From a bacterium (GTDB taxonomy: Bacteria > CAIWAD01): a DNA stretch of 64,000 bases. A program made the position numbers and the translations under genes. Of this stretch, positions 16,553 to 59,700 are shown one piece after another. The notes under the pieces are model-generated. The model did no database searches. It had not been told where the DNA came from and was given only the letters and a program-made list of their open reading frames with translations. The DNA is taken from contig JAUIFJ010000010.1 in the NCBI GenBank assembly GCA_030429345.1, positions 73,512-137,511 of the forward strand, given 5' to 3'. Position 1 is the stretch's first letter. Every line of letters starts with the position of its first letter.

Positions 16553-16579
16553 AGCGGGGCGGAAGAAGCATGGGTCGGG

Positions 16580-16599: not shown

Positions 16600-16637
16600 G
16601 ACGGGTCTGCGGCGCGCGTGTGCGGATGTGTGACGTG

Positions 16638-17573: not shown

Positions 17574-17574
17574 G

Positions 17575-19710: not shown

Positions 19711-19721
19711 TGTCGTCGTCC

Positions 19722-21795: not shown

Positions 21796-21901
21796 GGGAT
21801 TGCCTCCAGCTTGCCATTTACGGACCTTGATCCGGTGTCGCTTTCGCAAGCAGTTCTCGGCACCGGCTGGAAGCGGCTTACAGCTTTTGCTCCCCGTGAG
21901 C

Positions 21902-40425: not shown

Positions 40426-40509
40426 TGTTTTCTGCAGGAGTGATACGGCGAAGCTGAATCGACGAAATGGCTTTCGATTCTACGAGGGCCTGTTGCCCAG
40501 AGGCTTAGA

Positions 40510-43394: not shown

Positions 43395-43769
43395 ATGCGA
43401 AAGAAGAACCGGATCAAGGGCAAGAAGGCTTTGTTCGTGCTGGGCCTCGGCCTGGGCTACCAGGTCAGCGCCCTGCGCGATCGCAAGGACGAGTCGGCGA
43501 AGATCTATGCCATCGAACGCTACGAGGATGTCTTCGAGCGCGCCCGGCAGGCCCAGCAATGGGACGAGGGCGTCGGCGAGGATGTGGAGTTCCTGATCGG
43601 CAGGGACATGGACTCGGTGATGGCCCACCTGGACCAGGTCACGCGGAAGATGGAAGACGAGGACTGGGACGTGATCACGAACCAGCCCTCGATCCGCCTG
43701 GACCCCAAGTACTACAAGACCATGCTGCGCGCCTGGCGCAAGCGCAAGGCCCTGGTGTCCGAGGACTAG
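43395..43769 (+). CDS. Free-standing Maf N-terminal-like domain
   Basis: A 124-residue protein whose ALFVLGLGLGYQVSAL start, IYAIERYEDVF and FLIGRDMDSVMAHL match the order of elements in the N-terminal part of Maf proteins (GAGLGYQAV, RIVECDARCL in the gene at 52.3 kb). The fold is probably Rossmann-like. It has no DUF115 catalytic part. The ATG follows ACGGGAACGGGATC, a weak site. It is the first gene of the glycan operon, 4 bases before the NeuB-like gene. Function is unknown; it may be a partner or truncated relic of a Maf protein. Confidence 0.7.
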   Translation: MRKKNRIKGKKALFVLGLGLGYQVSALRDRKDESAKIYAIERYEDVFERARQAQQWDEGVGEDVEFLIGRDMDSVMAHLDQVTRKMEDEDWDVITNQPSIRLDPKYYKTMLRAWRKRKALVSED

Positions 43770-43773
43770 ACGC

Positions 43774-44607
43774 GTGACACCCCGCATCCACCGGAAGCCT
43801 CGTGTGCTGGCCCACCTGGGCCTGAATCACGACGGCTCGCTAGCCCGGGCCCTGGCCCTGGTCGAGGAGGCGGCCGCCAGCGGTGTTGCCGGCGTAGCGC
43901 TTCCCCTCTATTTCCATGCACCCGTCTCCGGGGACGAGGATCCATCCTGCCCCGTGGCGATGGTGGACGCGGAGGACCGGGACCTGGCTGCCTGCGAGCT
44001 GCAGGCAGCAGCCATCGAGCACATCCTGGACAAGGCGCGCCGGCTGGGCCTGGTGACGGTTCTGGAACTTTGTGATCCCCTGTCCCTCATGCTGGCCTCC
44101 GGCATGGATGTGCATGCCTACTGCCTGCACCTGGGGCGGCCCGGCATGATCGATCATGTGCCGGAGCTGCTGGAACACGGACGCCGACTCTTCCTGCTGA
44201 CGCCCCTGGCCGATACGCTCGAGCTCGCCGCCCTGCGCGAGAGGATCCCGGAGAATCGCATGCAGCAGGTGACCCTTGTCTGCGGCGCGCTGCGCCCGCA
44301 GGAGCCCTCCGCGGACTGCCTGGAGCTGACGCGCCGCTTCTTCGGGAATGTCGGTTTCTGTGATACGGACCCCGCATCGGGAACGGCCCGCCGTGCCGCC
44401 GCAGCCGGAGCGGACTGGATCCTGAGCTACATCACACTGGATCGCGCCTCCCGCGGACCGGGACACTACTGGGCCCGCGACCGCGAAGGTCTGCGCCGGC
44501 TGTGCTCCTCGCTGGGGCACCGGCAGCGCGCACTTCCCGGGTCCCGCAACCGATCTCTCGGTTCGGGATTCCGCGACTCCCTAGGAAATCATCCTCATGC
44601 ATCCTGA
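43774..44607 (+). CDS. NeuB-like protein, probably catalytically degenerate
   Basis: A 277-residue TIM-barrel-like protein related to sialic/pseudaminic/legionaminic acid synthases. The N-terminal HLGLNHDGSLARALALVEEA corresponds to the family's E-x-G-x-NH-x-G motif, with the Glu replaced by His. Near residue 220, ILSYITLDRASRGPGHYWA corresponds to the IEKHxTLD...GPDH region, but the Glu-Lys-His is replaced and the DH of GPDH is GH. The SAF antifreeze-like C-terminal domain is missing. A synthase function is therefore doubtful; a binding or regulatory role is possible. The start is GTG. Confidence 0.6.
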   Translation: MTPRIHRKPRVLAHLGLNHDGSLARALALVEEAAASGVAGVALPLYFHAPVSGDEDPSCPVAMVDAEDRDLAACELQAAAIEHILDKARRLGLVTVLELCDPLSLMLASGMDVHAYCLHLGRPGMIDHVPELLEHGRRLFLLTPLADTLELAALRERIPENRMQQVTLVCGALRPQEPSADCLELTRRFFGNVGFCDTDPASGTARRAAAAGADWILSYITLDRASRGPGHYWARDREGLRRLCSSLGHRQRALPGSRNRSLGSGFRDSLGNHPHAS

Positions 44608-45631
44608 TACAGCCCTGATGACCGACCTGCTCGGGGACATCGAGCGGGGCCTCGGTTCCACCCGAGTCAAGCGACTGGAGGAGCTGGTCGCGCTTTACCT
44701 TGGACCCGGTGCCCATTGCGCGGCCCTGAGCAACCCTGCGCCGGCCCTGCAGCTGGCTCTGGGGGCCCTGGGACTGCGCCCGGGGGAACGGGTCCTCCTG
44801 CCGGCCCTGATCGAGCCGCAGCTGGTTCATCCCGTGTTGCACCTGGGAGCCGAACCGGTCTTCCTGGACGTGCACCCTCACAGCCTGTGTCCGGATCCCG
44901 GGCGCATGCGCGACTGGATCGAGAGCCGCGCCCTGAGACACAGCGGATCCTGGTTCGAGCGCGAAAGCGGACACCGGCTGGCGGCCTTCGTTTTCGCCAA
45001 CCGCGACGGGCTTCCCGCCCCGGTGGAGGAGTATCACGAAATCGCGGGGCGCTATGGGCTGCGCCTGGTGGAGTGCTGTGCTGCCGCGGAAGGAGCGGGC
45101 TCCGGTCCATTGCCTGACATACGCCTCGTCGACCTGCGCTCCGCGCCCTTCGGACTGGATTCCGGAGCCCTGTTGATCAGCCAGGACGCGGACCTTCGCC
45201 GCAGCGCGGTCCACTGGGCGGAACTCTGTGCGACAAACAGCGATGCCGGGCATGACGGCTTCGGTTTCCAGTACCGCCTGTCGGCCCTGCTCGCGGGTCT
45301 GGCGGCGGAGCGCTTCGAACGCTGGCAGGCAAGCACCCGCACACGGGAGGAAAAGCCGTCCAGGCGGCCGCGCAAGCTCTGGCGCCTGCCGGGCGGCGAG
45401 AATGTGCGCCAGTTCAGCGCCCACCTCTTCGAGCACGGCTGGACTCCGCTTTCCCTGCCTCCCTGCCTGCCGGACCAGGAACTGTACTCCGGGTTTGCCG
45501 GCGAAGCGACCCCCGAAGCCAGCCAGGCGGCGCAGCACTGCCTGCTGGCAGAACGTCGTACGGATGCGCTGACGGCGCCGCTGCTGCATGCGACACCCGG
45601 AATCCCTGCAACGAAAGGCGCACACGCATGA
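44597..45631 (+). CDS. DegT/DnrJ/EryC1-like protein lacking PLP residues
   Basis: A 344-residue protein with the fold pattern of sugar aminotransferases: NPAPALQLALGALGLRPGERVLLPAL at the N-terminus, AEPVFLDVHPHSLCPDP, and LVECCAAAEGAGSG where active enzymes have (V/I)EDxAQAxG. The usual Lys that binds PLP (SFHxxKxxxxGEGG) is replaced by VDLRSAPFGLDSGALLIS, with no Lys. Both the Asp and the Lys of the PLP site are absent, so it is unlikely to be an aminotransferase. It overlaps the NeuB-like gene by 11 bases. Confidence 0.65.
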   Translation: MHPDTALMTDLLGDIERGLGSTRVKRLEELVALYLGPGAHCAALSNPAPALQLALGALGLRPGERVLLPALIEPQLVHPVLHLGAEPVFLDVHPHSLCPDPGRMRDWIESRALRHSGSWFERESGHRLAAFVFANRDGLPAPVEEYHEIAGRYGLRLVECCAAAEGAGSGPLPDIRLVDLRSAPFGLDSGALLISQDADLRRSAVHWAELCATNSDAGHDGFGFQYRLSALLAGLAAERFERWQASTRTREEKPSRRPRKLWRLPGGENVRQFSAHLFEHGWTPLSLPPCLPDQELYSGFAGEATPEASQAAQHCLLAERRTDALTAPLLHATPGIPATKGAHA

Positions 45632-48600
45632 ACTTCCTGATCGCCGGCATCAAGAACTGGCCCATGCATCACGCCTGGGAGCATGCCATCGCCGAGGCGC
45701 TGCAGGCCGCCGGACACCGTGTCACCTTCCTGGGATGCGCGCCGGGCGCCTTCAACAGCTGTGAATGCGTGGACCGCAACACCGTATCCGCTCACGGGGA
45801 CCATGCCGCCTTCTGCGCGGGCTGCGTCCAGCAGCAGCAGGGAGTGCATGCCCGGGCCGGATTCGCCGAAAGGTCCCTGGCGGCCGACGAAGAAAGCGAA
45901 ACCCGCCTGAGGCAGGACGTGCTCGGGCGCTCGATCGGCGAGCTGCTCGCCGAGGACTTCGAGGGACAGCCGGTGGAGAAGCTGCTGCTGCCCTCGCTGC
46001 GCCGCTGGGGCAAGAGCGGCGAGTCCCTGGACAGCTTCGTGCCGCCGCGCGTGCTGCAGGAGCATCTGCTGACCGTGCACCGTATACGCCGGCAGCTCCC
46101 GGACCTGCTCGAGAACGAGGCCATCGACACGGTCATCGTGCTCAACGGGCTCTTCGCGGCCGAGCAGGCGATCAGCCTGGTCGCCGCCCGCCATGGCTGC
46201 CGCGTGATCAACTACGAGCGCGGCCACGTGCGGAACACACTGATGCTTTCCGACGGCGGCCCCTCCTGCCACCTTGAACTCGGCAGCCGGCTGCCCCGGG
46301 ACCTGGACGCCGAGCTGGATCCGGTCTCCGCCGGCCTGCTGGACCGCTACCTGGACGGCCGGCACGACAACCAGGACAGCAATGTGCGCTTCGGAACCGA
46401 CGGGGCGGGCCTGGAAGGGACCAGGACACGCGTCTGCGCCTTCGCCAACGTCAGCTGGGACTCGAGCATCTGTTCGCGCTCCACCGTGTTCGGCGAGTAC
46501 CGCGAGTGGCTGCGCGCCCTGCTGTCCCTGGCCCGCAACAATCCGGACCTGGAAGTCGTGATCCGCGTGCATCCCGGCGAGGCAAGCCTCAGGACGGATC
46601 CCACCATCGACCGGACCGGGCGCTGGATCCGTGCGCAGCAGCCGCCGGAGAACCTGGTGCTCGTGGACGCCGAGGATCCGCTCAGCTCCCGCCAGCTGGC
46701 CAACCAGTCGGACCTGGTAGTGGTCTTCTGCACCACCTTCGGTCTCGAGCTGGCCTGCCAGGGGCGCACCGTGTTGACCTGCGGCGAAGTGCACTACGCC
46801 GGTCACGGCTTCACGGTCGACCTGGAAAGCGCGGAGTGCTTCGAGCAGACTGTGAGACAGAGGATCGCCGAACCGCTCGAGGCGGAAACCGTCAGGCGCC
46901 GTGCGCGCTCCTATGCCTATGCCCTGTTCTTCGAGGCGCCGCTGCCCTTTCCCTGGGTCGAGGAGGTGGAGTACGGCGTGCCGCAGCGCCTGGCGCCGGC
47001 GATCACGACCGAGTGGCTGGGAAGCGACGAGCTCCTGCGCGGACTGCTGTCCTGGTTCTGCGGGGAACGGGCCCTGCCGCCTTCCCTGCGCGACCTGCTC
47101 GACCGTCCGGAAGCCTGCCCCCTGCCCTGGTGCTACAACTCGAGGCTGGAGCGCCCGAAAGGCGCCCTGGCCGTCCTGATTCCGGCTTTCGAGCGCCCCG
47201 ATTCCCTGCGCAAGGTCCTGGAGGGCTATGCCGCCCAGGACTGCGGCAGCCGCTCCTTCCGTGTTCTCGTCGTCGATGACGGCAGTTCTTCGCCCCTGGA
47301 GGACTCCTTTTGCGACCTGGAATCCCGGCTGGACCTGGAATGGCTCCGCCTGCCGCACAACAGTGGACCGGCAAGAGCGCGTAACACGGGGATCGAGCAC
47401 CTGCTCCGGGCGGGCAGCGGCATCGGGCAGATCTTCATCACGGGCGCGGACATGATACCGGCGCAGGACCTGGTCGCGGGGCTGCAGAAGGCCCGTCGCG
47501 GCTGGGGCGATCCACGCGTCGCGCTGCTGGCGCACGTGGACTGGGCCGAAGGGCTGCCGGTCAACCGGGTGATGGACCTGGTGACACGCAACGGCATGCA
47601 GTTCGGCTTCTCGGGCCTGCCGGCCCGCGCGATCCTTCCACCGCAGTACCTGTACACAAGCGGAGTGGCCCTGGATGCCGGCTTCCTGCGCAGCAGCGGC
47701 CTGCGTTTCAGGGAAGACTTTCCCTACGCCGCCTGGGAAGACACCGAATTCAGCCTGCGCGCCTGGAAGGCGGGGCTGGTGCTGGCCTACGACCGCGATC
47801 TGCGTGTGTACCACGATCATCCGATGACCCTGGATTCCTTCTGCGAGCGCCAGGTTCGAGCAGGCGCGGCAGCCAGGGTCTTCGAGCGTCTCGAGCCGCA
47901 GGCCTATCGCAGTGTGGCCGGCCAGCCGCCGGAGAATCCCCCCGATCGGCGGCAGATGCACGCCCTGCGGGAAGCGGCCCGGGAACTGGACAAGCTCGAC
48001 ACGGAGCGCTTGCGCGGGGTGCAGGGGCCGAGGGGAGACCTGGGCGAAAGCCTGGATCGCGAGCAGAACGACCTGCTCGCGCAGCTCTTCCGTCTGCATC
48101 ACGAAGCCGGCTGGTTCTCCGAGCCGCAGATCGCGCCTGGGGAAGGAGTCGAGGGCCTGCTGAGCATCCTGATCCCGGTCAGGGACCGCTGGGCCCTGAC
48201 GCGGGACTGCCTGGAGGCCATTCGACGGAACACGAAGGGTCCCTGGGAAGTGATCGTCGTCGACAACGGCTCCTCGGACGAGACGGCCGCGAAGCTTGCC
48301 GGCATGGAGGACGTGCTGGTCCTGCGCAGCGAAAGCAACCTGGGCTTCGCCCGGGCCAACAACCTGGCGGCGGGACACGCCCGCGGCGAGCTGTTGGTGC
48401 TGCTCAACAACGACACGATCGTGCAGGAGGGCTGGGACGAACCGCTGCGCCGGGAGCTGGCTGATCGTGTGACAGGAATCGTGGGCCTGCGCCTGGTCTA
48501 CCCGGACGGCACGATCCAGCATGCCGGCGTGGCCTTCGGCGAGAACGGCCTGCCCTGGCACATCTATCGCGGACTTCCCGGAATGGCGGACCCCGTGATG

Positions 48601-49191
48601 CATCGCCGCGAGCTTTCCGCGGTGACCGGCGCCTGTCTCGGAATCCGCCGGGATCTCTACGCGGCCATGAAGGGCCTCGACGAGAATTTTGTCAATTGCT
48701 ACGAGGACATCGACCTCTGCCTGCGCGTCCGCGCCGCCGGATTCCGGGTCGTCTACAATCCGGAAGGAAGCGTGATCCACCTGGAAGGAAAGACCGCGGG
48801 ACGCAACGACCGGGTGGCGCACAGTTGGCGCGTGCTGCTGGATCGCTGGGAAGGGCGCTTGCCCAGGGACCAGGAGCGTCTGCTGGCCGAGGACGGCCTC
48901 GAGCTGGAAAGCAGCGAGCAGGGCGTGCGCTACCGCCGCATGCCAAGGCTGAGCGCCGAGCAGGAGATCGACCGCCTGCTGAAGCAGGGAGAGCGCGACA
49001 AGGCGCGAAAGGTCCTGCGTTTCCGGGTCAATCAGCATCCGGATGATCTCGGCGCCCGCCTGAGGCTGCTGGACCTGGAACTGGATGCCGGAAACCTGTC
49101 GGCCGCCCAGGCGCTTAGCCGCGGATTCACCCTGGACGAGAAGAGGCGCGAGCGGATGGCGGTTCTTGCGGCCGGCGGGGAAGACGCGTGA
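45628..49191 (+). CDS. Three-module glycosyltransferase (capsule-synthase-like plus two GT2 domains)
   Basis: A 1187-residue cytoplasmic protein. Residues 1-500 resemble capsule polysaccharide synthase/export-type glycosyltransferases (NYERGHVRNTLML, HPGEASLRTDPT, VVFCTTFGLELACQGRTVLTCG). Residues 513-760 are a GT2 domain (VLIPAFERPDSLRKVLEG, VVDDGSSS, AAWEDTEFSLRAWKAG). Residues 844-1090 are a second GT2 domain (ILIPVRDRWALTRDCLEAI, VVDNGSSDE, LLNNDT, NCYEDIDLCLRVRAAG). The last ~80 residues are helical. It overlaps both neighbours by 1-4 bases. It could build an oligosaccharide in several steps. Acceptor and sugars are unknown. Confidence 0.85.
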   Translation: MNFLIAGIKNWPMHHAWEHAIAEALQAAGHRVTFLGCAPGAFNSCECVDRNTVSAHGDHAAFCAGCVQQQQGVHARAGFAERSLAADEESETRLRQDVLGRSIGELLAEDFEGQPVEKLLLPSLRRWGKSGESLDSFVPPRVLQEHLLTVHRIRRQLPDLLENEAIDTVIVLNGLFAAEQAISLVAARHGCRVINYERGHVRNTLMLSDGGPSCHLELGSRLPRDLDAELDPVSAGLLDRYLDGRHDNQDSNVRFGTDGAGLEGTRTRVCAFANVSWDSSICSRSTVFGEYREWLRALLSLARNNPDLEVVIRVHPGEASLRTDPTIDRTGRWIRAQQPPENLVLVDAEDPLSSRQLANQSDLVVVFCTTFGLELACQGRTVLTCGEVHYAGHGFTVDLESAECFEQTVRQRIAEPLEAETVRRRARSYAYALFFEAPLPFPWVEEVEYGVPQRLAPAITTEWLGSDELLRGLLSWFCGERALPPSLRDLLDRPEACPLPWCYNSRLERPKGALAVLIPAFERPDSLRKVLEGYAAQDCGSRSFRVLVVDDGSSSPLEDSFCDLESRLDLEWLRLPHNSGPARARNTGIEHLLRAGSGIGQIFITGADMIPAQDLVAGLQKARRGWGDPRVALLAHVDWAEGLPVNRVMDLVTRNGMQFGFSGLPARAILPPQYLYTSGVALDAGFLRSSGLRFREDFPYAAWEDTEFSLRAWKAGLVLAYDRDLRVYHDHPMTLDSFCERQVRAGAAARVFERLEPQAYRSVAGQPPENPPDRRQMHALREAARELDKLDTERLRGVQGPRGDLGESLDREQNDLLAQLFRLHHEAGWFSEPQIAPGEGVEGLLSILIPVRDRWALTRDCLEAIRRNTKGPWEVIVVDNGSSDETAAKLAGMEDVLVLRSESNLGFARANNLAAGHARGELLVLLNNDTIVQEGWDEPLRRELADRVTGIVGLRLVYPDGTIQHAGVAFGENGLPWHIYRGLPGMADPVMHRRELSAVTGACLGIRRDLYAAMKGLDENFVNCYEDIDLCLRVRAAGFRVVYNPEGSVIHLEGKTAGRNDRVAHSWRVLLDRWEGRLPRDQERLLAEDGLELESSEQGVRYRRMPRLSAEQEIDRLLKQGERDKARKVLRFRVNQHPDDLGARLRLLDLELDAGNLSAAQALSRGFTLDEKRRERMAVLAAGGEDA

Positions 49192-50474
49192 TGCGCTGCA
49201 CCGTGATCCAGCTGGCCCGCGTGGGCGATCTGGCGCAGAGTGTCCCCCTGCTGCGCGCTCTGAAGAGCTCCGGCAGGCGTGTGACTCTCATCTGCCCGGC
49301 GGACCCGGGAACATGGATTCGCCACTGGGCCGATGAGTTGCGCGTGGTCGATCTGCAGGGAATCAGCGGGCTCGCCGGAGACCCGGTGGGACTGATGCGG
49401 GAACTGCACAAGTCCCTGGGTGATCTGCTTTCCTCAGAAGTCGATGAGCTCTACTGCCTCAACGAAGCCGCTCCGGCATTGGGCCTGCGAGCCCTTCTGC
49501 CGGCAAGGCGCTGCTGGGGATTCGGTGACGAGACCCACCCCGCCGTCGCCTGGATGCGCGAACTCACGACACGTCGGGTCGAAAACCGCATCCACCTGAG
49601 CGAGTGGCAACTGGCGCTGCGGCCGGATCTGGAGGCGGAAGTCTCCGCTGCTCGCACGCGCGCGCAAGGACCTCTTGTGATTCATGCCGGGTCCGGGCAC
49701 CCCGCGCGACGCCTGGAAGGGGAGTTCTGGAAAGCCCTCCTGAAGGAGCTGGGAACACGGATGCCCGGAACGAGAATCCTGCTGAGCGGCAGCGGGAGCG
49801 AAGCCTCCTTCTGCGAAGCGCTGGCCGCCGGGCAAGCCCACGTGGAATCGCTGGCCGGCCGGACCTCGCTGGATGATCTCCTGGGGCTGATCGGGGAGGC
49901 GCGCCTGTTGCTGGCGCAGGACACGGGAGTGCTGCACCTGGCGGCGCTGACGGATACCCCGCTGCTGGGACTGTATCACGCCAGCGCGCGGGCCTTCGAG
50001 ACCGGGCCCTTCCAGCATGGCGCACGCGTGCTCGAGATCGTGGCCGATTGCCACCCCTGTGTCGAAGGGCTTCCCCCCTGCGGAGACTTCACCTGCCGTG
50101 CCAGCCTCGATCCGGCGCGTGTCGCGGCGGAGGCCGCCGCCCTGGCCGTCGGGGATCCGCCTCCGCCCGCGGACGAAAGCCTGCTGCGCGGGTATACGGT
50201 CGACTTCGGCGAGGAACTCTATCTCCTGCAGCCCGCGGAAGGGCTGGACCAGGACCGGATCGAGGAGAAGCGGCGTCAGCTGGCCCAGGTCCGCGGCGAG
50301 CTGCCCTTCAAGCTGCCCGGAGTATCACGCGCAGCCCTCGAGGATCTGCGGACACGCGGACTTGGCTTCGTCGACCTGCAGCGGCGATTCGGTCTGCCGG
50401 AAGCCGGGAGCCTGTCCCTGGGAGCCCGCTACCGCGAAGCGGCGGCCTGCCTGTCGAGCGGGGAAAGCCGATGA
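49191..50474 (+). CDS. GT9 (heptosyltransferase-like) glycosyltransferase
   Basis: A 427-residue GT-B enzyme. The N-terminal VIQLARVGDLAQSVPLLRALK is the GT9 pattern. IHAGSGHPARRL replaces the usual GAxxxxKRWP, and the nucleotide-sugar region is LLAQDTGVLHLAALTDTPLLGLY. A cysteine-bearing CHPCVEG segment follows. The last ~100 residues are an extension beyond the family. In this operon it more likely glycosylates a protein or surface glycan than the LPS core. The start may also be the GTG one codon upstream. Confidence 0.85.
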   Translation: MRCTVIQLARVGDLAQSVPLLRALKSSGRRVTLICPADPGTWIRHWADELRVVDLQGISGLAGDPVGLMRELHKSLGDLLSSEVDELYCLNEAAPALGLRALLPARRCWGFGDETHPAVAWMRELTTRRVENRIHLSEWQLALRPDLEAEVSAARTRAQGPLVIHAGSGHPARRLEGEFWKALLKELGTRMPGTRILLSGSGSEASFCEALAAGQAHVESLAGRTSLDDLLGLIGEARLLLAQDTGVLHLAALTDTPLLGLYHASARAFETGPFQHGARVLEIVADCHPCVEGLPPCGDFTCRASLDPARVAAEAAALAVGDPPPPADESLLRGYTVDFGEELYLLQPAEGLDQDRIEEKRRQLAQVRGELPFKLPGVSRAALEDLRTRGLGFVDLQRRFGLPEAGSLSLGARYREAAACLSSGESR

Positions 50475-52273
50475 AGATCCTCCTGCTGGACATCCCTCTC
50501 TTCCGCGAAGAGCTCCGTCAGCTGGGGCACGAGGTCTGCAGCCTGGGACCGGATCCGGCCTGTGATACGGTGATCCCGCCTGGCCAATGGACCCTGGAGA
50601 GCATTCGCGCCTCACGCCCGGCAGGATTCGAGCCGGACATTGTGCTCCAGAGCGAGAGCCTGAAACAAAGGCACTTTCCGCTGGAGCTGGCGCGCCTGCC
50701 CTGGCCCAGCGTGTGGTATTCGATCGACGGACACCTGCACCTGGACTGGCACCTGCAGATGGGCCGCCTGGTGGACCGCGTGCTCTGCAGCCAGCTCGAC
50801 GTCTGCCGCGCGTTCCGGGGGCGGGGCCTGCGCGCGGACTGGCTTCCCTGGAGCGTCAACGCGCCGGCAGAGCTCCCCGCAGGGCGGGATCTGCCCCTCG
50901 CCATGGTCGGCAGTTTCCACCCGGGGCATCGTCCGCGGCGCATGCAGCTGCTCGAGAAGTTGAAGCGACGTTTCCCCCTGGAGCTTTTCGGCCCTCCGTA
51001 TACGCCATTCCTTTCGGCGCCTGAGCAGGAGGAGATCTATGGACGCTCGCGAATCGTCTTCAACGAGTCGATCGGGGGCGAGATCAACTTCCGCCTGCTG
51101 GAGGCGGCGGCCTGCGGCGCCTGTGTTCTCAGCGACGAGGCGGACAACGGGCAGGACATGCTGCTGGCTCCCGGTAGCGAGTACATCCCCTGGACCACGG
51201 CAAGCCTGGAAGAACGGGTCGAGGAACTGCTCGAGGATCCGGAACGCTGTCTGGAAGTGGGGCACAGGGCCCGAAAGCGCGTTCTCGCCGAGCACGGCCG
51301 CCTGTCCCGGGCCCGCCAGCTCGTGCAGCTTGTCCAGGGCACGGACATCCGCCCCGGGCGGGTCGAAGTGGATCACGGTCCGGTCGAAGATGGTGTGAGA
51401 CGCAGGCTGCAGGCCAACGGCCTGGGGCCGGGAGAGTTCGGCGGATCACGGCAGGTTCCAGATTGTCGTTCGGAGGAGGACCTGCTGCCCTGCCTGGAAT
51501 GGCTGCGCGCCGGTGGCGAGGCATCACGCCTGCAGGGAGCGCACCCGGTGCTCGACCTGGCAATCCATGCCGATCGACTGCTGCAGGACTTGAAGGCCCG
51601 TGCCCTGGGTGTCGACGAGGCCAAGGCCGCGGCATTCCTGCTCTGCGAAGCCTTCGTCTCGGCAGGCCGCAGGCGCACCCCCGGCATGTGGAACGGCCCC
51701 TCGGGAGAGCTTCGTTACCCGGCCTGGGAGCTGCAGCTGATCGAAGCCATGGCCCACGTCATGCCGGGGGATCCGGACTTGATTGTGGCACATGCCCGCT
51801 GCCTGGTGCAGAGCGGCCAGCCGGAGGCGGCCCTCGATTCCCTGACGCTGCTGCTGAAGCACATTCTTTCCAGGGAGCAGAGAGTGTCCGCAGCCTTTCT
51901 CCACGAAGTCGCGGGTCTCCAGGAACAGTGCGGTTTTCGCGAGCAGGCCCTGCTGACCCTGCTGGCGCTTCCGCCGGAGGAACTGCTGCAACGGGCCACG
52001 AGTCCCCTGGCGAAGAGGGCACTCCTGCTGGCCGGAAGCACCTGGGAGGAACTGGAAGCACTGTGCAGCAGGCAACCGGATTCCGCGGCGCTCGAGCGGC
52101 TCCTGCAACAGGCGCGGACCGACACGCAGCGGCAGCGGGCCGAAGACGCATTGCAGCGCGCCCTGGCTTTCGCGCCGAACTGCTCGCGTATACGTCGCCT
52201 GGCCGCGCAATGGAAATCGCAACCCGTTCCGGAACGAGTCCGGAGCACGGCAACCGGTGGAAAGGTTCTGTGA
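50471..52273 (+). CDS. CgeB-like glycosyltransferase with helical repeat tail
   Basis: A 600-residue protein. Residues 1-290 match the CgeB/DUF3880-type GT-B family (WYSIDGHLHLDWHLQMGRL, AMVGSFHPGHRPRRMQLL, GRSRIVFNESIGGEINFRLLEAAACGACVLSDE). Residues 330-590 are alpha-helical, with LVQSGQPEAALDSLTLLLKH of TPR type. The first part has FE/NFRLLE acid residues as in the family. The ATG overlaps the GT9 stop by ATGA. Sugar and acceptor unknown. Confidence 0.8.
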   Translation: MKILLLDIPLFREELRQLGHEVCSLGPDPACDTVIPPGQWTLESIRASRPAGFEPDIVLQSESLKQRHFPLELARLPWPSVWYSIDGHLHLDWHLQMGRLVDRVLCSQLDVCRAFRGRGLRADWLPWSVNAPAELPAGRDLPLAMVGSFHPGHRPRRMQLLEKLKRRFPLELFGPPYTPFLSAPEQEEIYGRSRIVFNESIGGEINFRLLEAAACGACVLSDEADNGQDMLLAPGSEYIPWTTASLEERVEELLEDPERCLEVGHRARKRVLAEHGRLSRARQLVQLVQGTDIRPGRVEVDHGPVEDGVRRRLQANGLGPGEFGGSRQVPDCRSEEDLLPCLEWLRAGGEASRLQGAHPVLDLAIHADRLLQDLKARALGVDEAKAAAFLLCEAFVSAGRRRTPGMWNGPSGELRYPAWELQLIEAMAHVMPGDPDLIVAHARCLVQSGQPEAALDSLTLLLKHILSREQRVSAAFLHEVAGLQEQCGFREQALLTLLALPPEELLQRATSPLAKRALLLAGSTWEELEALCSRQPDSAALERLLQQARTDTQRQRAEDALQRALAFAPNCSRIRRLAAQWKSQPVPERVRSTATGGKVL

Positions 52274-53532
52274 TGCAACGACTGGATCTCGGCGCCCTGC
52301 GTCGCGTGGCACGCGAAGCGGATGCCTACCCCCTGCTGAGTACCCGTGAAGGCGCGCAGAGTTGCCGGCTGCCCCAGGGGCAGCTCCTTCACAGCGCCTA
52401 CGACCCCTGGAGCGAGGCCCGTCGGCAGGTCCGCGAGGCCGGCGTGGGCCCCTCCTCCCGTCCCCTGCTGCTGGGAGCCGGGCTGGGCTACCAGGCGGTG
52501 GCCTGCCTGGAGGCGGGAGCAAAGGCCCTCCGCATCGTGGAATGTGATGCGCGCTGCCTGAGCACCCTGGCCGCCATGCCCTGGGCCGGCGAGCTGCTCA
52601 GGGATCCGCGTGTCGAGCTGCTGCACTTCAAGGACGATGCCGGCTTCACGAGCCTGCTGACGCGACTCTTCGAGGGCGAACACGGCAGTCAGCCTCTCCT
52701 GACCCTCTCGCCGGTCCCGCGGCTCTGGGAAGGCCGCGCGCCCCGGGCGGCCAACATGGTGCGAGACATTCTGTCCCGCCGGCTCAACGGCTATGCCCAG
52801 GAGGCAAGCCTCGACTGGAATCGCGAACAGAACCGCCGCTTCCTGGAGACCAGCGCCGAGCTGAACCTCTACTCGGGTGCTTGGCGGAACCGGCCCGTGG
52901 TCGTTGCCGGAGCCGGGCCTGGACTGGACCGGGACCTGCCTGAACTTCTGCGCACACGGGAAGAGTTCCGCCTGGTGGCCGTCAATGCCAGCCTGGCGCC
53001 GCTGCTCGGCGCGGGCATCGTTCCCGACCTGTGTGTCGCCGTGGACGGAATGAACGTGATCCAGGCCGATCTGCCGGTGCGCGCCGTGGACCTTCCCCTG
53101 CTCTGGATTCCGGGAACGAATCACGGCTTCGTCTCCGGCTGGCCCGGTCCGAGGATCCTGGCCCTGCCGGTCGGCCCCGGCCTTCCGCCCGCCGCGTGGG
53201 AGGGCGCCATGCCCGGTTTCCTGCAGAGCGGCATGGGAACGGTCATCGGTCCGGCTCTGGATGCCGCCTCCCAGCTGAGCGGCGGCCCGCTGCTGCTGAG
53301 CGGCGTCGACCTGGGAAGCGCCGGCGAAAGGCTCTACGCCGGCCGCGTGAGACGCCAGGCCGTGGCCAGCGTGCGCTCGGATTTCGCCTACATGCGGCGG
53401 CAGCTCGGGACCTTCGTCCAGGAACTGCGCATGAAGGGCCGACGTGTGGGAGCCTTCGGCGACTGCCCCGACTGGCTTGCCGAGCTGCATTCCCCCAGGC
53501 CCCTGTCCTGCAGCATGGAGGAGAGCGCCTGA
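52273..53532 (+). CDS. Maf (motility-associated factor, DUF115) glycosyltransferase
   Basis: A 419-residue protein of the 6-hydroxymethylpterin pyrophosphokinase MptE-like (DUF115) family. The N-terminal Maf-N part has LLLGAGLGYQAVACL near residue 65. The core begins near 210 with VVVAGAGPGLDRDLPEL, then LVAVNASLAPLLGAGIVPDLCVAVDG, and later GPLLLSGVDLG. Maf proteins transfer nonulosonic acids (pseudaminic or legionaminic acid) to flagellin Ser/Thr, which is the best functional anchor for the whole cluster. It is shorter than Campylobacter or Clostridium Maf (about 550-650). Confidence 0.87.
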   Translation: MQRLDLGALRRVAREADAYPLLSTREGAQSCRLPQGQLLHSAYDPWSEARRQVREAGVGPSSRPLLLGAGLGYQAVACLEAGAKALRIVECDARCLSTLAAMPWAGELLRDPRVELLHFKDDAGFTSLLTRLFEGEHGSQPLLTLSPVPRLWEGRAPRAANMVRDILSRRLNGYAQEASLDWNREQNRRFLETSAELNLYSGAWRNRPVVVAGAGPGLDRDLPELLRTREEFRLVAVNASLAPLLGAGIVPDLCVAVDGMNVIQADLPVRAVDLPLLWIPGTNHGFVSGWPGPRILALPVGPGLPPAAWEGAMPGFLQSGMGTVIGPALDAASQLSGGPLLLSGVDLGSAGERLYAGRVRRQAVASVRSDFAYMRRQLGTFVQELRMKGRRVGAFGDCPDWLAELHSPRPLSCSMEESA

Positions 53533-55286
53533 TGCGAAGCGTATACGAGATCCTGTCGCAGCGCTGGCCCGGGATAGCCGCCGAACTGGCCGGTCGGCCT
53601 GCCGTGACACAGACACATGCCAATGCCCTGAAGTTCCGCGGCCGCTCCATGCAGTCCAGCCGGCCGGAGATCGAGGCGCGCCGCCTGGTCGATCGCCGCT
53701 TCGGCGATGCTTTGCCCGCCGAAGTGGTCCTGTCCGGACACGGCACCGGCCCCATGTGCGCCGAACTCCTGCGCCGGGGCGTCCGGAGGCTGCGCGTGAT
53801 CGCGCCGGACGCGGACTGGCTGCAGACGGCCCTGGCCAACTGGACGGAGCCGGAGCTGCTGGCCCATCCTTCCCTGGAGCTGGAGCTGCCGGGGCGTACT
53901 GCACCCGGCCTGCCCGCGGGAGCCTTGATCGAGCATCCGGCCTGCCTGCGCGCATTCCCCTGGGAAATGGCCCGGATTCGTGTTGCACTGGAGAAAAGCC
54001 GCTCCTCGGATCTGCGTCTGAAGATCCTCGTAGTGGAGCCCTTCTACGGCGGTTCCCTGCCGATTGCCGGCTACGCGGCCCGCGCCTTTCGCGAGCTGGG
54101 GCACCAGGTCCGCCAGGTCAGCTATGCCGGCATGGCCGAGGCCTGGCGCACACTGAGCGATGCCGGCGAGCGACTGCAGGACGCCGGCGACCTGCCGCAG
54201 CGCTTCACGGGCCTGGCCGGGGAACTGGCGCTGCACGAGGCGGCGGCCTTCCGGCCGGACCTGGTCTTCGTGCTGGCCCAGGCGCCGCTTCCGCCCGTGA
54301 TCCTGGAACGCATGCGTTCGCTGGGTATGCGCGTGGTCTTCTGGTTCGTCGAGGACTACCAGACCATGACCTACTGGAAGGCGATCCACGAGCACACGGA
54401 CCTTTTCCTGACCATCCAGCGGGGAGAGTTCCTGCAGCAGCTGGGCGGACGGGGCCATGCGGCCTATCTGCCGCTCTGCACCGAACCTTCTGTCTTCCAT
54501 CCGCAGCCTCAGGATGGGTTGGATCACGAACTGACCTTCGTCGGGGCGGGCTATCACAACCGTGAGACGACCTTCCTGCAGCTGCGCAGGCAGGGCCTGA
54601 AGATCTGGGGCGGGGACTGGAATCCCCTGCACCCGGCATGGGAGATGGTCCAGGAGGAAGGGCGGCGCACGAACGACGAGGACAACCGGAGCATCTTCAG
54701 CAACAGCCGCATCAACCTCAACCTGCATTCCTCGACCTACCACGAGGGAGTGGATCCGGCCGGCGACTTCGTAAACCCGAGGACCTTCGATATCCTGGCC
54801 TGCGGCGGCTTCCAGCTGTGCGACGAGCGCAGCCTGCTGTCCGAGCTGCTCGAGCCCGGACGACACCTGGACACCTTCCGGGACGCGGAGGAGCTGAAGG
54901 AGCGTGTCGCGTACTACAGGGAGCATCCGGAAGAGGCGCGGGCCATGGCGGAGGCGGGGCGGGCCCATGTGCTGAGGTATCACACTTTCCGCCGCCGCAT
55001 GGAGGAATGCCTGGAGCTGGCCCTTCTGCGTGATCCGGACTGGTTCCCCGCCGCCGTGAGACGCGACGAGGAGCGCGCCCTGGCTTCCGATCCCCAGCTG
55101 CGGCGGCTGCTGGAGACCCTGCCGCCGGAGGTGGAACCTTCCGTGGACGGCATCAGCGCCTGGCTGGAACGGCGGGGCGGACGGCTCGATGCCACGGAAG
55201 GGCTGTTCCTCTACATGGCGCGCATCAAGGACTGGGCGCGTTCCAAGAACATCGACCGCATGCTGGAGGCGCGTCCCCGTGGCTGA
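53532..55286 (+). CDS. Maf-N-like domain fused to a CgeB-like glycosyltransferase
   Basis: A 584-residue protein. Residues 1-155 resemble the Maf N-terminal part (VVLSGHGTGPMCAELLRRGVRRLRVIAPD). Residues 160-500 are a CgeB-type GT-B enzyme: ILVVEPFYGGSLPIAGYAARAF, FWFVEDYQTMTYWKA, FVGAGYHNRETTFLQL, SRINLNLHSSTYHEG and NPRTFDILACGGFQLCDE. A helical tail of about 80 residues follows. The start shares one base with the Maf stop. The fusion implies that Maf-N and CgeB act on the same substrate. Confidence 0.82.
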   Translation: MRSVYEILSQRWPGIAAELAGRPAVTQTHANALKFRGRSMQSSRPEIEARRLVDRRFGDALPAEVVLSGHGTGPMCAELLRRGVRRLRVIAPDADWLQTALANWTEPELLAHPSLELELPGRTAPGLPAGALIEHPACLRAFPWEMARIRVALEKSRSSDLRLKILVVEPFYGGSLPIAGYAARAFRELGHQVRQVSYAGMAEAWRTLSDAGERLQDAGDLPQRFTGLAGELALHEAAAFRPDLVFVLAQAPLPPVILERMRSLGMRVVFWFVEDYQTMTYWKAIHEHTDLFLTIQRGEFLQQLGGRGHAAYLPLCTEPSVFHPQPQDGLDHELTFVGAGYHNRETTFLQLRRQGLKIWGGDWNPLHPAWEMVQEEGRRTNDEDNRSIFSNSRINLNLHSSTYHEGVDPAGDFVNPRTFDILACGGFQLCDERSLLSELLEPGRHLDTFRDAEELKERVAYYREHPEEARAMAEAGRAHVLRYHTFRRRMEECLELALLRDPDWFPAAVRRDEERALASDPQLRRLLETLPPEVEPSVDGISAWLERRGGRLDATEGLFLYMARIKDWARSKNIDRMLEARPRG

Positions 55287-56976
55287 GATCCTGGTGATCA
55301 ACCTGACCCGAATGGGCGACATCGTGCAGACCGGACCGCTTGTCGAGGGCCTGCGGCAGAAGCATCCCGATGCGCGGATCTCGCTGTTGGTCATCGACAG
55401 CTTCCGCGGCATCGCCGAGCAGCTTTCCGGCGTGGACGAGATCCTGGTCTACGGACAGGACGAGAGTGTCTCACGCCTGATGGCGCCGGGCTGGAGCCTC
55501 GAGCAGGGCTTCCGCTGGCACCGGGACTTTGTCGACGGACTGAGGAAACGCTCCTGGGACCTGGTGATCAACCTGACGCACAGCCTCGACAGCGCCGTGC
55601 TGAGCCATCTGCTGGGCGCGGCGGAAGTGCGCGGCCTTTGCGTCCACGCCAACGGCCTGAAGACGATCCGCCACGACTGGGTGCGCTATTTCTTCAATGT
55701 GACCGCCAACCGCGGCTTCAACGATTTCAACCTGGTGGACATCTACCGCCAGATCGGGGAACTGTCGCCGGAGCAGGGAACACGCCTTCGCCTCGAGCCC
55801 GGCGAAGAGGCCCGTTCTCGTATACGAAGCCTGCTGGAGCCCGGCAAGGGGCCCCTGGTCCTGCTGCAGATGGGGGCCAGCAAGCCCGACCGGCGCTGGC
55901 CGACGGGCTCCTTCGCCCGTACGGCGCGGCTGCTGCGCGAACAGTGCGGCGCCCGTTTCGCGCTTTGCGGAACGAAGAAGGACGGAGCGCTGTCCCGCGA
56001 ATTCCTGCAGGCCGCGCCTGAACTGCCGGCACAAGACCTCTGCGGCGCGACCAGCCTGGCCGAGCTGAGCGCACTCTGCGAGTCGGCGGATCTGCTGATC
56101 AGCAACGACACGGGTACGATGCACATCGCGGCAGCCATGGACACTCCGGTGGTCAGCCTTTTCATGGCCACGGCCCTGCCGGAGGAGACGGCCGCGTATA
56201 CGCGCCAGGCCTGGATCCTCCAGCCGGATATCCCCTGCACTCCCTGCAGCCACCACGTGGAATGTCCCCACATGGCCTGTCGCGGATACATCACGCCGGA
56301 GGCCGTCGTCCGCGCCGCGAGGGAGGCGCTGGGAGTCGGCGCGGGGGAGCCCTGGCCAGATTCGGGAACGATCCGCGTATACCGCAGCGAGCGGGACTCC
56401 CGAGGATTCCAGGTCCTGCGCTCCCTGCTGCCCAAGCCCCTGCGGCGACAGGACCTGGTCGCGCGCTGCTACCACCAGTACTGGCAGCAGTCGCTTGGAC
56501 GGGTGAGCGAAGAGCAAGGCGATCCACTCGAGGAAGAGATCACGAAAGTGCTGGAAGAGACCCTGCCCCCGGAAGATCCGGAAGGCCTGATGGCTTCCCT
56601 GGCCGCCTGTGCCACAGGCTTCCTCGAGCTGGCCGAGCTGGCGGACCGCGGCGAGAAGCTGATCGATTCCGTGCGGAAGGAGCTGGCGCGGCCGGCCCCT
56701 TCGCCCGAGACGCTGTCGGACCTGGCGGATCAGATTGGCGCACTGGATCGCGAGATTCTCGACCGCGAGCTGGAGGAGCCGGCCCTGCGCCCGGTGGCGG
56801 TCCTCTTCCGCTTCGACAAGGATGGACTGGATCACGAAGGCGACATGGACGAACTGAACCGCGGCATGCGGGAGATCTACCGCAAGCTGGGGCAGCGCTC
56901 ACGGGGGCTCGCGCACAGGCTGCGCACGGTGGAAAGCCTGCTGCAGGGCCGACTGGCGGCGGAGGTGCTCCCGTGA
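55279..56976 (+). CDS. GT9 glycosyltransferase with long C-terminal extension
   Basis: A 565-residue protein. Residues 1-345 are GT9 (ILVINLTRMGDIVQTGPLVEGL, LQMGASKPDRRWPTGSFART, LISNDTGTMHIAAAMDTPVVSLF), with Cys-rich PCTPCSHHVECPHMACRGY near 320. Residues 345-565 form a helical extension with no recognised domain. The first gene-order hints (Maf, CgeB, GT9) repeat the order seen upstream. It starts with GTG inside the last codons of the previous gene (8-base overlap). Confidence 0.85.
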   Translation: MAEILVINLTRMGDIVQTGPLVEGLRQKHPDARISLLVIDSFRGIAEQLSGVDEILVYGQDESVSRLMAPGWSLEQGFRWHRDFVDGLRKRSWDLVINLTHSLDSAVLSHLLGAAEVRGLCVHANGLKTIRHDWVRYFFNVTANRGFNDFNLVDIYRQIGELSPEQGTRLRLEPGEEARSRIRSLLEPGKGPLVLLQMGASKPDRRWPTGSFARTARLLREQCGARFALCGTKKDGALSREFLQAAPELPAQDLCGATSLAELSALCESADLLISNDTGTMHIAAAMDTPVVSLFMATALPEETAAYTRQAWILQPDIPCTPCSHHVECPHMACRGYITPEAVVRAAREALGVGAGEPWPDSGTIRVYRSERDSRGFQVLRSLLPKPLRRQDLVARCYHQYWQQSLGRVSEEQGDPLEEEITKVLEETLPPEDPEGLMASLAACATGFLELAELADRGEKLIDSVRKELARPAPSPETLSDLADQIGALDREILDRELEEPALRPVAVLFRFDKDGLDHEGDMDELNRGMREIYRKLGQRSRGLAHRLRTVESLLQGRLAAEVLP

Positions 56977-58691
56977 ACTGGAGATTTTGCCGCGTACCCG
57001 CCCGCAACGGCGAAGACAGCCTGCAGCTCGTCAGCGACGAGGGCGGCCTGCTGCGTGTACACAGTCCCCTGGATCCCGGACGGGAAGCCCGCCGGATGCT
57101 GGCCTCGCTTTCCCTGGAGGGTGCTCCCCTGCTGGTGATCGCCGGAGGAGGGCTGGGCTGGCTCGCCCGTGAGGCGGAAGGTTCGAATCCCGCGCCCTGC
57201 GCCATCCTGGAGCTGGAGCCGCCCGCCGCGGACACGATCCTGCGCGGCAAGCCCTCCCCGCGGGGCATTCGGCTCAGCGGCACAGCGGCGGACCTGGTGC
57301 AGCGTGTCACGCGCGAGCAGATGCAGCGCGGCTGGCCGGACATCGTCTTCGTCGCCAACGCGGCCTATCAAAAGGCCTTTCCCGCCTGGTGCGAAGATCT
57401 GCAGGCACACTTCCGGCCCGGGCGCAACACCTGCGAACTGGGACACAGCCGGCGGGAGGCCTGGCAGGGACGACGCGTTCTCGTGATCCAGAGCGGCTAC
57501 TTCCTGCTGCGCGAATGCGTGGAGGCCTTTCGCGAGATGGACTGCGAAGTGGGCCTGGTGCCTCTTTCCGCGAGCGAGCAGGTGATCTCGCCGACCTTTC
57601 GCAGCGGCGGCCCGAAGGTCGACGCCGATTTTCCGGGCCGGCTGCTGGAAGCGATCCGCGACCAGCGTCCGGACGTCGTCTTCACGGTGAATCACATCGG
57701 CCTGGACAGCGAAGGGCGCCTGCTGGACCTGCTGAAGAGCCTGCGGCTGCCGCTAGTCAGCTGGTTCGTCGACAGCCCTGTATACATCCTTGACGGACAC
57801 CGGCAGGTGGCCAGCGACTGGACGCACCTCTTCGTCTGGGAGCGCCACTGGATGGCGCCGATGCGCGAGCTGGGCTTTGCCAGCGTCGACTGGCTTCCGC
57901 TGGCCGGTCACAGCGCCTTTCGCAGGATGCCTGCGAAAGCGCCACGGCGCGACCTGGGCTTTGTCGGCGGAAGCAACGTGGAAGCGGTCGGCAAATGGCG
58001 GAACCGGCTGCGCCTGCCGCAGGAGCGGAACACGGAGCTGGAGGCCCTGCTGGCCGCCTGGCGCAATGCGCTGGCCCTGCCGGGAGCGAGCCTGAAGCGC
58101 TGCCTGGGAGACTTTCCGCGCCTGGCTGCCGGGCTGGACAAGGATCGCCGGCGCGTGCTGGAAAGCTGGCTCGTGCTGAAGGCGACCCAGCTGGATCGCC
58201 TGGAAATGGCGCGCCGCTTCCGGGAGCGGGACTTCGTGCTCCACGGCGATCCGGGGTGGCGGGAGCTGGACGGGAGGCTGCCCTTGCGCGCTCCGCTCGA
58301 GTATTACAGCGAGTTGCCCTTGCATTACGGCGAGAACCGCATCAACCTGAACCGCACCTCGCGGCAGATGCCGACGGCGCTCAACCAGCGCGCCTTCGAC
58401 GTGCCGCTCTGCGGGTCCGTCGTGCTCGGGGATCACCGCTCCGACCTTCAGGAGCTGTTCGAGCCGGGCAGGGATTGCCTTTCCTGGAGGTCCCTCGACG
58501 AGGCGGAGGCTCTTGCCGAGGAGCTGCTGGCCGACGAGAAGCGACGTCTCGCCCTGGCCCGCTCGGCGAGGCGGACCGTGATCCAGCGCCATCTCTACCG
58601 GCACCGGATCGGCACGATTCTGGAAACACTACACACATACCATGGCAGCACGGCCCCCGCCGGGTCCGCTGTCGTACGGGAGGACCAATGA
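56973..58691 (+). CDS. Second Maf-N/CgeB-like fusion glycosyltransferase
   Basis: A 572-residue protein with the same plan as the gene at 53.5 kb. Residues 1-150 look Maf-N-like (LLVIAGGGLGWLAREAEG, CAILELEPP). Residues 165-560 look CgeB-like (VLVIQSGYFLLRECVEAFREM, SWFVDSPVYILDGH, DLGFVGGSNVEAVGK, GENRINLNRTSRQMP, NQRAFDVPLCGSVVLGD). It starts with GTG, overlapping the GT9 stop as GTGA. It is the last recognisable glycosyltransferase of the operon. Confidence 0.8.
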   Translation: MNWRFCRVPARNGEDSLQLVSDEGGLLRVHSPLDPGREARRMLASLSLEGAPLLVIAGGGLGWLAREAEGSNPAPCAILELEPPAADTILRGKPSPRGIRLSGTAADLVQRVTREQMQRGWPDIVFVANAAYQKAFPAWCEDLQAHFRPGRNTCELGHSRREAWQGRRVLVIQSGYFLLRECVEAFREMDCEVGLVPLSASEQVISPTFRSGGPKVDADFPGRLLEAIRDQRPDVVFTVNHIGLDSEGRLLDLLKSLRLPLVSWFVDSPVYILDGHRQVASDWTHLFVWERHWMAPMRELGFASVDWLPLAGHSAFRRMPAKAPRRDLGFVGGSNVEAVGKWRNRLRLPQERNTELEALLAAWRNALALPGASLKRCLGDFPRLAAGLDKDRRRVLESWLVLKATQLDRLEMARRFRERDFVLHGDPGWRELDGRLPLRAPLEYYSELPLHYGENRINLNRTSRQMPTALNQRAFDVPLCGSVVLGDHRSDLQELFEPGRDCLSWRSLDEAEALAEELLADEKRRLALARSARRTVIQRHLYRHRIGTILETLHTYHGSTAPAGSAVVREDQ

Positions 58692-59305
58692 TCCTGATCA
58701 TCAACGACGCACAGCGCGACCTGCCCGCCGGCGCGGGAGCGGCCCGGACACTGGAAGAAGTCCTGCAGTCCCTGGCGGAGGATTTCCGCGACGAGGGCCT
58801 GCTTGTCACACAAGTGATCCTCAACGGGACGGATGTCACCGGCAAGCCCCAGGAAGAGGTCCATGCCCTGGGCGCTCCGCAGAAAGTCGAGATTCGTGCT
58901 CGCCGGCCGGAAGAGCTGGTGGCCGACAGTCTGGCGGTCACCGCGGAAATGGTCGGGCCGCTGCAGCGGGAACTGGCGGAGTGCGCCGACAAGCTGCGCA
59001 TCGGGGACGAGGCCAACGCCACCCTGATGCTCTTCCGCGTCATCGATTCCTTCCAGCTGCTGAAGATGGGCGTGTCACACATCGGCCGCATCCTGCGCAT
59101 GCAGCTGCCGGATGTCGACCGCGGGGTTCTCGACGAGTTCATCGATCGCCTGGACGGCCAGCTTTCGGAAGTGGTCGCGGCCCAGGAAAGCCAGGACCTG
59201 ATCCTGCTCGCGGATCTGCTGGAGTACGAGATCGGCGAATCGCTGGAGGAATGGCAGCAGCAGGTAAGCGAAATGGGCAAGCGCCTGTGCCGGGTGGAGG
59301 CCTGA
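58688..59305 (+). CDS. Hypothetical 205-residue protein of the glycan operon
   Basis: I do not recognise this family. Residues 1-70 look like a small alpha/beta domain (MILIINDAQRDLPAGAG..., QVILNGTDVTG). Residues 75-205 are strongly helical with a conserved-looking ALMLFRVIDSFQLL-type stretch (TLMLFRVIDSFQLLKMGVSHIG). There is no signal peptide or membrane segment. The ATG overlaps the CgeB-like stop (ATGA) and its own stop overlaps the next gene, so it is an integral operon member. Position after Maf genes is where flagellar chaperones can occur. Confidence 0.75.
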   Translation: MILIINDAQRDLPAGAGAARTLEEVLQSLAEDFRDEGLLVTQVILNGTDVTGKPQEEVHALGAPQKVEIRARRPEELVADSLAVTAEMVGPLQRELAECADKLRIGDEANATLMLFRVIDSFQLLKMGVSHIGRILRMQLPDVDRGVLDEFIDRLDGQLSEVVAAQESQDLILLADLLEYEIGESLEEWQQQVSEMGKRLCRVEA

Positions 59306-59700
59306 TGGGAGCGGCAGAGCAAGCCGCCGCCCTGCTGGTCGAGCGGCTGAAGACCTGGGAAGAGCTGCTGAAGGCGGTACTTGCCGCAGGAGTCGAGACG
59401 GGCGAGCTGGACGCGCTCAACGAGCGCCGGCAGGAGCTGTCGGACGAGATCGCGCGCGCCATCGTCGGCATCAGCTCCGCCTGGCCGCCCGGTGATCCAC
59501 GGCGGCTGGAACTGAAACGCGTCTGCCTGGAGCACTGGCAGCGGATCCACGTGATGGAGGAGCAGGTGGAAGCCCTTTTCCGCCGGGAACTGGCCACCCT
59601 GCGATCACGGCTGGGGGAGGTCGGCCGCTTCCGGGCCGCCCTGGGCGGCTACGGCCGGCCCCGCTCCCGTGATCCACGAAGGATCGATACCCTGCGCTAG
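59305..59700 (+). CDS. Small helical protein, possibly an FlgN/FliT-like chaperone
   Basis: A 131-residue, almost wholly alpha-helical protein (WEELLKAVLAAG, LDALNERRQELSDEIARAI, MEEQVEALFRRELATLRSRL). Size, helix content and gene position recall FlgN or FliT flagellar chaperones, but no diagnostic motif is present, so this is only a suggestion. The ATG shares a base with the previous stop. It is the last gene of the ~16 kb operon. Confidence 0.6.
   Translation: MGAAEQAAALLVERLKTWEELLKAVLAAGVETGELDALNERRQELSDEIARAIVGISSAWPPGDPRRLELKRVCLEHWQRIHVMEEQVEALFRRELATLRSRLGEVGRFRAALGGYGRPRSRDPRRIDTLR

Follow-up and report, generated by a model that had tools for sequence, protein, structure and literature searches.

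A Maf N-terminal domain shared by Maf and CgeB-type glycosyltransferases, and its possible role in flagellin glycosylation

Why should glycosyltransferases (GTs) of different folds, encoded side by side in one gene cluster, begin with the same protein segment? This question is raised by positions 43395-59700 of a 64,000-nucleotide stretch of a bacterial genome (contig JAUIFJ010000010.1 of assembly GCA_030429345.1; this whole stretch is termed the window), where four segments with a glycine-rich motif lie in frame on the plus strand in the genes that start at 43395, 52273, 53532, and 56973. A reading made from the sequence alone had taken them for one Maf-N-like module used four times, namely, alone in the first gene, in a Maf protein in the second, and fused to CgeB-like GTs in the last two (termed CgeB1 and CgeB2), and had suggested that the module recognizes a common acceptor, for example flagellin, or docks the enzymes into one complex. 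The four segments are indeed one homologous module, the N-terminal domain of Maf (PF20157, Maf_flag10_N).

A common N-terminal module

The identity of the module is established by profile comparison, which the sequence-only reading had set as a check beforehand. Each of the four modules was aligned with its close orthologues, the resulting small alignments and one distant Maf N-domain were compared by hhalign, and all ten pairs scored far above chance, with probabilities of 39-97% (E 3e-4 to 1e-11). In contrast, every pairing of a module with a control, which included other Rossmann domains of the same loci and one true methyltransferase among other domains, gave 1.7% or less (E 0.03 or worse). 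The solo module at 43395 matched the distant Maf N-domain at E 1e-11, the N-module of the 52273 protein matched those of CgeB1 at E 2e-11, and that of the 56973 protein matched a Maf N-domain over 162 columns at E 4e-10. The Pfam family PF20157 itself gives no direct match in the 52273, 53532, and 56973 proteins, which are linked to it through profiles, and it matches 53 of 61 CgeB1 modules at E 0.01 or better. In two distant genomes (G046 and G012) the CgeB fusions score above its cut-off. The mean column identity of the module is low (26%). A profile of six CgeB1 modules recovers 17 of 21 distinct Maf proteins, the majority belonging to distant genomes, and when it was run against the 3534 open reading frames of the 80 related loci described below, all 108 matches were Maf or CgeB-type proteins, including one at first unclassified (L175:3325-4914) that is CgeB-type by Pfam. 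A profile built from a larger alignment of CgeB1 modules only was searched against 177,635 PDB sequences, and its sole significant match was to residues 115-172 of 5mu5 (E 1e-6), which is the Maf of Magnetospirillum magneticum according to the entry title, the matched region being the Maf N-domain.

AlphaFold2 models were made of the solo 43395 protein and of the 53532 module, and the structural results cover these two copies. Both are predicted to be Rossmann-like (predicted local distance difference test, pLDDT, 90 and 87, respectively). The top 50 Foldseek matches of the two models did not include 5mu5, which surfaced on realignment, where it is the top match of the 53532 module (Z 12.2, root-mean-square deviation 3.7, 164 of 169 residues, Maf residues 10-244), followed by an RNA methyltransferase (Z 8.0) and spermidine synthases (Z about 7.8). 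The structural check proposed earlier was positive for the 53532 module, which in prediction has the fold of the 5mu5 N-domain, but did not discriminate for the solo protein, which aligns to 5mu5 with Z 8.3 over 117 residues and hence no better than to catechol methyltransferases, such that its membership rests on sequence. Unrelated folds were not seen in the two copies modeled. The best explanation is that the module is a degenerate Rossmann domain resembling those of class I methyltransferases and spermidine synthases, and a published account (PMC11339370) describes the Maf N-domain as Rossmann-like and degenerate, with no clear function.

A glycine-rich GxGLG loop followed by an acidic residue is common to many Rossmann proteins, and the four segments might be unrelated and share that loop alone. 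The chance of this is practically nil, as coincidence is ruled out by the failure of the control domains in hhalign and by the singling out of a Maf from the entire PDB set by a profile made from CgeB proteins, while the match to the 5mu5 fold extends over the whole domain and stands well apart from those to other Rossmann folds. Recent duplication within the operon is also ruled out, since all four copies group with their respective orthologues from relatives. In a tree of 143 modules from the four carrier types, the carrier types cluster (17 label changes versus 57 when shuffled) and the deep branches are unresolved.

Distribution and the link to flagellin

How widely is this arrangement used? 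Scanning 84,980 species genomes for relatives of the 53532 enzyme gave 469, and the best 80 loci were retrieved, to which the locus counts given here refer. The module is present in 77 CgeB1-type proteins of these best 80 among the 469 relatives, and the same loci have it on 25 CgeB2-type proteins and eight Mafs, with most carriers belonging to the Nitrospirota, Nitrospinota, and Desulfobacterota. The usual gene order is [N-CgeB2]-[GT9 or other GT]-N-CgeB1-GT9-W11, where W11 is the conserved protein encoded at 58688 in the window; a GT9 gene occurs in 79 of the 80 loci and W11 relatives occur in 50. In eight loci from several phyla a Maf gene immediately precedes CgeB1, orthologues of the 52273 protein adjoin CgeB1 in relatives, and the cluster is conserved within the same family of genomes. 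The module is also found on the L175 CgeB-type protein and in long fusions in which a GT-B (and GT17) domain or a true S-adenosylmethionine (SAM) methyltransferase is followed by the Maf N-module and then by the CgeB GT-B domains in one polypeptide, while CgeB1-like enzymes that do not have the module also exist (G027 and L094). The layout is widespread and not unique to this genome. The sequence-only reading knew of no described system of this kind, and no paper joining Maf and CgeB or describing the layout was found in a literature search that reached few subscription journals, but that view must be qualified in that PF20157 is a known Pfam family, whose layout on CgeB is, as far as this search shows, undescribed. 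No viral relatives of CgeB1 were found. As a separate observation, some loci encode CgeB2-GT9 fusion proteins of about 960-1400 amino acids (aa) that adjoin CgeB1, often beside fliC-fliD-fliS.

The suggestion of a flagellin setting is well supported among the module carriers. FliC, FliD, or FliS is encoded within 10 kb of N-CgeB1 in 18 of the 80 loci, many contigs ending sooner, and by our rough estimate about one such locus is expected by chance. In G046, from a distant group, the cluster is preceded by fliD, fliS, and fliT (FliD from sequence reading, FliS and FliT from Pfam). Flagellin is present in all 50 carrier genomes tested. In a broad reference sample of 60 genomes, 30 encode flagellin, and these 30 include all six genomes with N-CgeB1 and all ten with PF20157 matches, although related genomes are not independent and the nominal probabilities of such co-occurrence are too strong. 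No carrier genome lacking flagellin was seen in the samples tested, and a phylum-wide test around G046 was consistent, with three genomes only. The Maf of locus L185 matches the NCBIfam family FlagModPseD, under its cut-off.

Conserved residues and possible roles of the module

What, then, might the module do? Its most conserved residues were determined across the 143 modules. The three glycines of the GxGxG loop are conserved at 100, 95, and 93%, a Glu after strand 2 at 95%, and the Pro, Glu, and Ser of an SxYDPxxE segment at 97, 88, and 86%, respectively. The acidic segment that had been read after the glycine-rich motif is present in three of the four window copies (E41 in 43395, E90 in 52273, and E82 in 56973); the 53532 copy has Ala91, where 75 of the 79 modules of its orthologue class carry Glu. 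Near the end of the module a simple xPSxxxxxxY pattern is found in all four solo copies and in 51 of 79 CgeB1 copies, and it is not taken as universal since few Maf and CgeB2 copies have it. Class I methyltransferases usually carry an acidic residue in motif I (hhD/E-h-GxGxG), just ahead of the glycines. The module has the Rossmann fold, the GxGxG loop, and the acidic end of strand 2 of these enzymes, and the position two residues before the first Gly is V, I, L, A, F, or C in all 142 modules that have a residue there. The conserved residues hence look like a ligand pocket without the hallmarks of a methyltransferase, that is, the pocket appears to be kept and the methyltransferase chemistry lost.

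Catalysis specific to a donor cannot lie in a segment that every carrier has, and a module found on both GT-A-like and GT-B enzymes is not tied to one donor or to one catalytic fold. From this sharing between the GT-A-like Maf and the GT-B CgeB enzymes it is reasonable to infer that the module may serve acceptor recognition or the docking of a complex, and since the carriers share a pathway, recruitment of the enzymes, either to their common acceptor or into one complex, is favored. The PF20157 module would thus be common to enzymes of different folds, namely, Maf, the two CgeB-type GT-Bs, and the solo protein, in one pathway of flagellin O-glycosylation, and would be an accessory domain rather than a transferase active site. 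It would bring each enzyme to their common substrate, which may be flagellin in the cytoplasm (perhaps together with its chaperone) or the growing glycan bound to flagellin, or its target may instead be the partner enzymes. The first sugar would be added by Maf, with the CgeB-type and GT9 enzymes acting at that same site. What we infer to be most likely is that flagellin is the acceptor in this organism, that the enzymes act in this order, and that the module serves recruitment. A precedent is Caulobacter FlmG, a GT that binds flagellin through a separate tetratricopeptide repeat (TPR) domain (PMC7591256). A recruitment domain for flagellin-glycosylating enzymes is given about an even chance of being correct and is favored over ligand sensing, although both could hold.

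Several observations weigh against this proposal. The most conserved residues (GxGxG, Glu, and SxYDPxxE) fit a ligand pocket whereas docking predicts conserved surface residues, the 43395 module stands alone with no catalytic partner domain, and there is no flagellin gene in the window, the five flagellin-family genes of the genome being on other contigs. The flagellar link in the window is only a weak FliT-like gene at the end of the cluster. The cluster might also modify another surface polymer, such as lipopolysaccharide or capsule, with the flagellar link being incidental, and the LpxB/LpxK-type genes upstream in the window and the GT9 (heptosyltransferase-like) and Capsule_synth-like domains in the cluster would be in keeping with this. 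It is nevertheless improbable given that every carrier genome tested has flagellin, that fliC, fliD, fliS, and fliT flank the clusters in several phyla, and that the L185 Maf resembles FlagModPseD.

Such a pocket, which the sequence-only reading had not considered, leads to another explanation, in which the module would be a sensor: the GxGxG/Glu residues would hold a small ligand (for instance SAM, a dinucleotide, or a nucleotide sugar) that turns the attached GTs on or off in concert. The near invariance of the Gly, Glu, and Pro residues, the fold matches to spermidine synthases and class I methyltransferases, and the full GxGxG and Glu retained by the solo copy are all consistent with sensing, but the acidic residue of motif I is missing from every module, the Glu has been lost from the CgeB1 copy in the window, the fold by itself could account for conserved glycines, and the Maf domain has been published as degenerate with unclear function (PMC11339370). 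Sensing is the main rival of recruitment and is regarded as possible but rather unlikely. We are more doubtful of its extension to the Maf N-domain in general, as a ligand-binding control module through which one SAM-like or nucleotide molecule would gate all four carriers (Maf, CgeB1, CgeB2, and the solo protein) at once; if true, such common gating would tie the glycosylation of the filament to metabolism in many phyla. The module might also be a structural leftover, i.e., an inherited cap that stabilizes the fold and has no role of its own, and its low overall conservation would agree with this, as would the CgeB1-like enzymes that do not have it, which indicate that the GT domain can exist without the module. 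However, a leftover would hardly be retained in nearly all of the best 80 CgeB1 relatives from many phyla, appear on the L175 protein and in long multi-domain fusions, be separately encoded, and keep its pocket-like signature, and we judge this explanation to be quite unlikely.

Recruitment remains the preferred reading, and whatever the role, a portable module that is found on GT-B enzymes of the same pathway and is almost always retained represents a set of natural domain swaps for probing function. Since the arrangement recurs in many flagellated bacteria, the role of the Maf N-domain is testable across enzyme families. The module also marks CgeB-type enzymes as candidate flagellin GTs in the Nitrospirota, Nitrospinota, Desulfobacterota, and other phyla.

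The gene cluster and comparison with known systems

The features of the cluster and of its relatives are listed in Table 1. Between 43774 and 59700, each gene overlaps its neighbor by a few bases or nearly touches it. The claim that the module stands alone at 43395 holds in that it is a separate protein, yet this is the Rossmann half only, with GxGxG and Glu kept and the first part, including the SxYDPxxEA segment, missing. Orthologues of the solo protein occur in the same family and the same class. In two relatives the solo module is the first gene of a complete legionaminate-type nonulosonate operon (solo module, formyltransferase, NeuA, NeuB, NeuC/LegG, CBS-nucleotidyltransferase, DegT; gene names by sequence reading), and in G004, a relative at the class level, a NeuA-like gene is encoded on its strand about 1 kb away, with LpxB/LpxK homologues also nearby. 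In the window, NeuB-like and DegT-like genes are all that remain of the nonulosonate genes beside the solo module. The former is missing the Lys and both His residues of the NeuB of relatives, which we take to be catalytic, and in the latter the NGNK segment of relatives, which contains the Lys that binds pyridoxal phosphate, is replaced. With open frames and key residues lost, both look like retained pseudoenzymes of the pathway and probably are; a canonical NeuB is encoded on another contig of the genome.

The central domain of the 52273 protein is only weakly similar by sequence to residues 265-325 of 5mu5 (E 0.08), and a C-terminal helical domain was not found in it, the protein stopping 70 residues past the Pfam match. 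Full-length Mafs of other loci have 626-641 aa, and compact Mafs of about 410-440 aa that lack the helical C-terminal domain are found in L110, L111, and L154 in addition to the window. For the CgeB enzymes, PF13524 (Glyco_trans_1_2) matches at E 6e-36 in 53532 and 3e-26 in 56973, and PF12996 (DUF3880) passes its cut-off of 25.2 bits in 56973 (34.0 bits) and is just under it in 53532 (22.6 bits). The small gene in the G046 flagellar operon (L092:2821) that corresponds to the last gene of the cluster matches FliT above the cut-off. W11 is a protein of about 140-250 aa with an (I/V)LLADL(L/M)EYEL motif, encoded downstream of CgeB1-GT9 in many phyla; the possibilities that it is the C-terminal domain of Maf encoded separately, or a relative of FliS, were both rejected (profile probabilities of 0.4 and 0.3%, respectively). 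Just upstream of the cluster (37978-42951) are two tandem proteins of ~815 aa, the first with a beta-helix and a Por secretion tail by Pfam, in DNA of clearly lower GC content (51-52% versus about 65%). The same contig has, by eye, a large chemotaxis-type cluster at 5706-21817 (CheA-like kinases, methyl-accepting proteins, CheW, CheR, and CheB).

Table 1. Genes of the cluster in the window and examples of related proteins in other loci
Feature	Coordinates	Strand	Basis
Stand-alone Maf N-module, Rossmann half only, 124 aa	43395..43769	+	PF20157 E 6e-5, 23.0 bits (cut-off 23.5)
NeuB-like protein, probably pseudoenzyme	43774..44607	+	PF03102 E 2.5e-7
DegT-like protein, probably pseudoenzyme	44597..45631	+	PF01041 E 1e-22
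Fused Capsule_synth-like and two GT2 domains, 1187 aa	45628..49191	+	Pfam; orthologues in genomes G001-G003
GT9 (heptosyltransferase family)	49188..50474	+	PF01075 E 1e-16
CgeB-type GT, C-terminal TPR-like part, without N-module	50468..52273	+	PF13524 E 9e-23, TPR weak
Compact Maf GT, N-module (about residues 1-185) and Maf_flag10/MptE-like domain	52273..53532	+	PF01973 E 4e-18
CgeB1, N-module (about residues 1-163), DUF3880 and Glyco_trans_1_2 (GT-B)	53532..55286	+	Pfam
GT9, partner gene adjoining CgeB1	55279..56976	+	PF01075 E 5e-32
CgeB2, N-module (about residues 1-168), DUF3880 and Glyco_trans_1_2 (GT-B)	56973..58691	+	Pfam
W11, conserved protein, LLADLLEYEI-type motif	58688..59305	+	No Pfam or NCBIfam family
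FliT-like small protein (weak)	59305..59700	+	PF05400 E 0.005, under cut-off
W11 in other loci	L087:6007-6624; L092:13849-14328
Long fusions with internal Maf N-module	L119:2334-5942; L140:8990-11770; L135:9029-11806; L186:2554-5442
CgeB2-GT9 fusions	L112:13924-18168; L113:3747-7931; L121:7990-11562; L124; L142; L176
Solo module of class-level relative G004	L091:2248-2652
NeuA-like gene of G004	L091:555-1253

How does the cluster compare with known systems? Known Maf proteins, which are flagellin GTs, have a PF01973-type center and the N-domain PF20157 (as in 5mu5), a domain so far known only from the front of Maf. The 52273 protein likewise has the N-module and the central domain but lacks the helical C-terminal domain that full-length Mafs have. 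In prediction, the 53532 CgeB module has the fold of the 5mu5 N-domain, and unlike the known Maf setting the module of the window is also found on GT-B enzymes and alone. CgeB/YkvP-type GT-B enzymes are composed of PF12996 and PF13524, both of which are present in the 53532 and 56973 proteins, and these two differ by the Maf N-domain in front, which the 50468 protein does not have. With class I SAM methyltransferases and spermidine synthases the module shares the fold, the GxGxG loop, and the Glu after strand 2, and it differs from the class I SAM methyltransferases in that no copy has the motif I acidic residue. The flagellin O-glycosyltransferase FlmG of Caulobacter is likewise a GT-B enzyme with a separate N-terminal domain, which binds flagellin (PMC7591256), but its domain is of the TPR type whereas the module of the window is a Rossmann domain.

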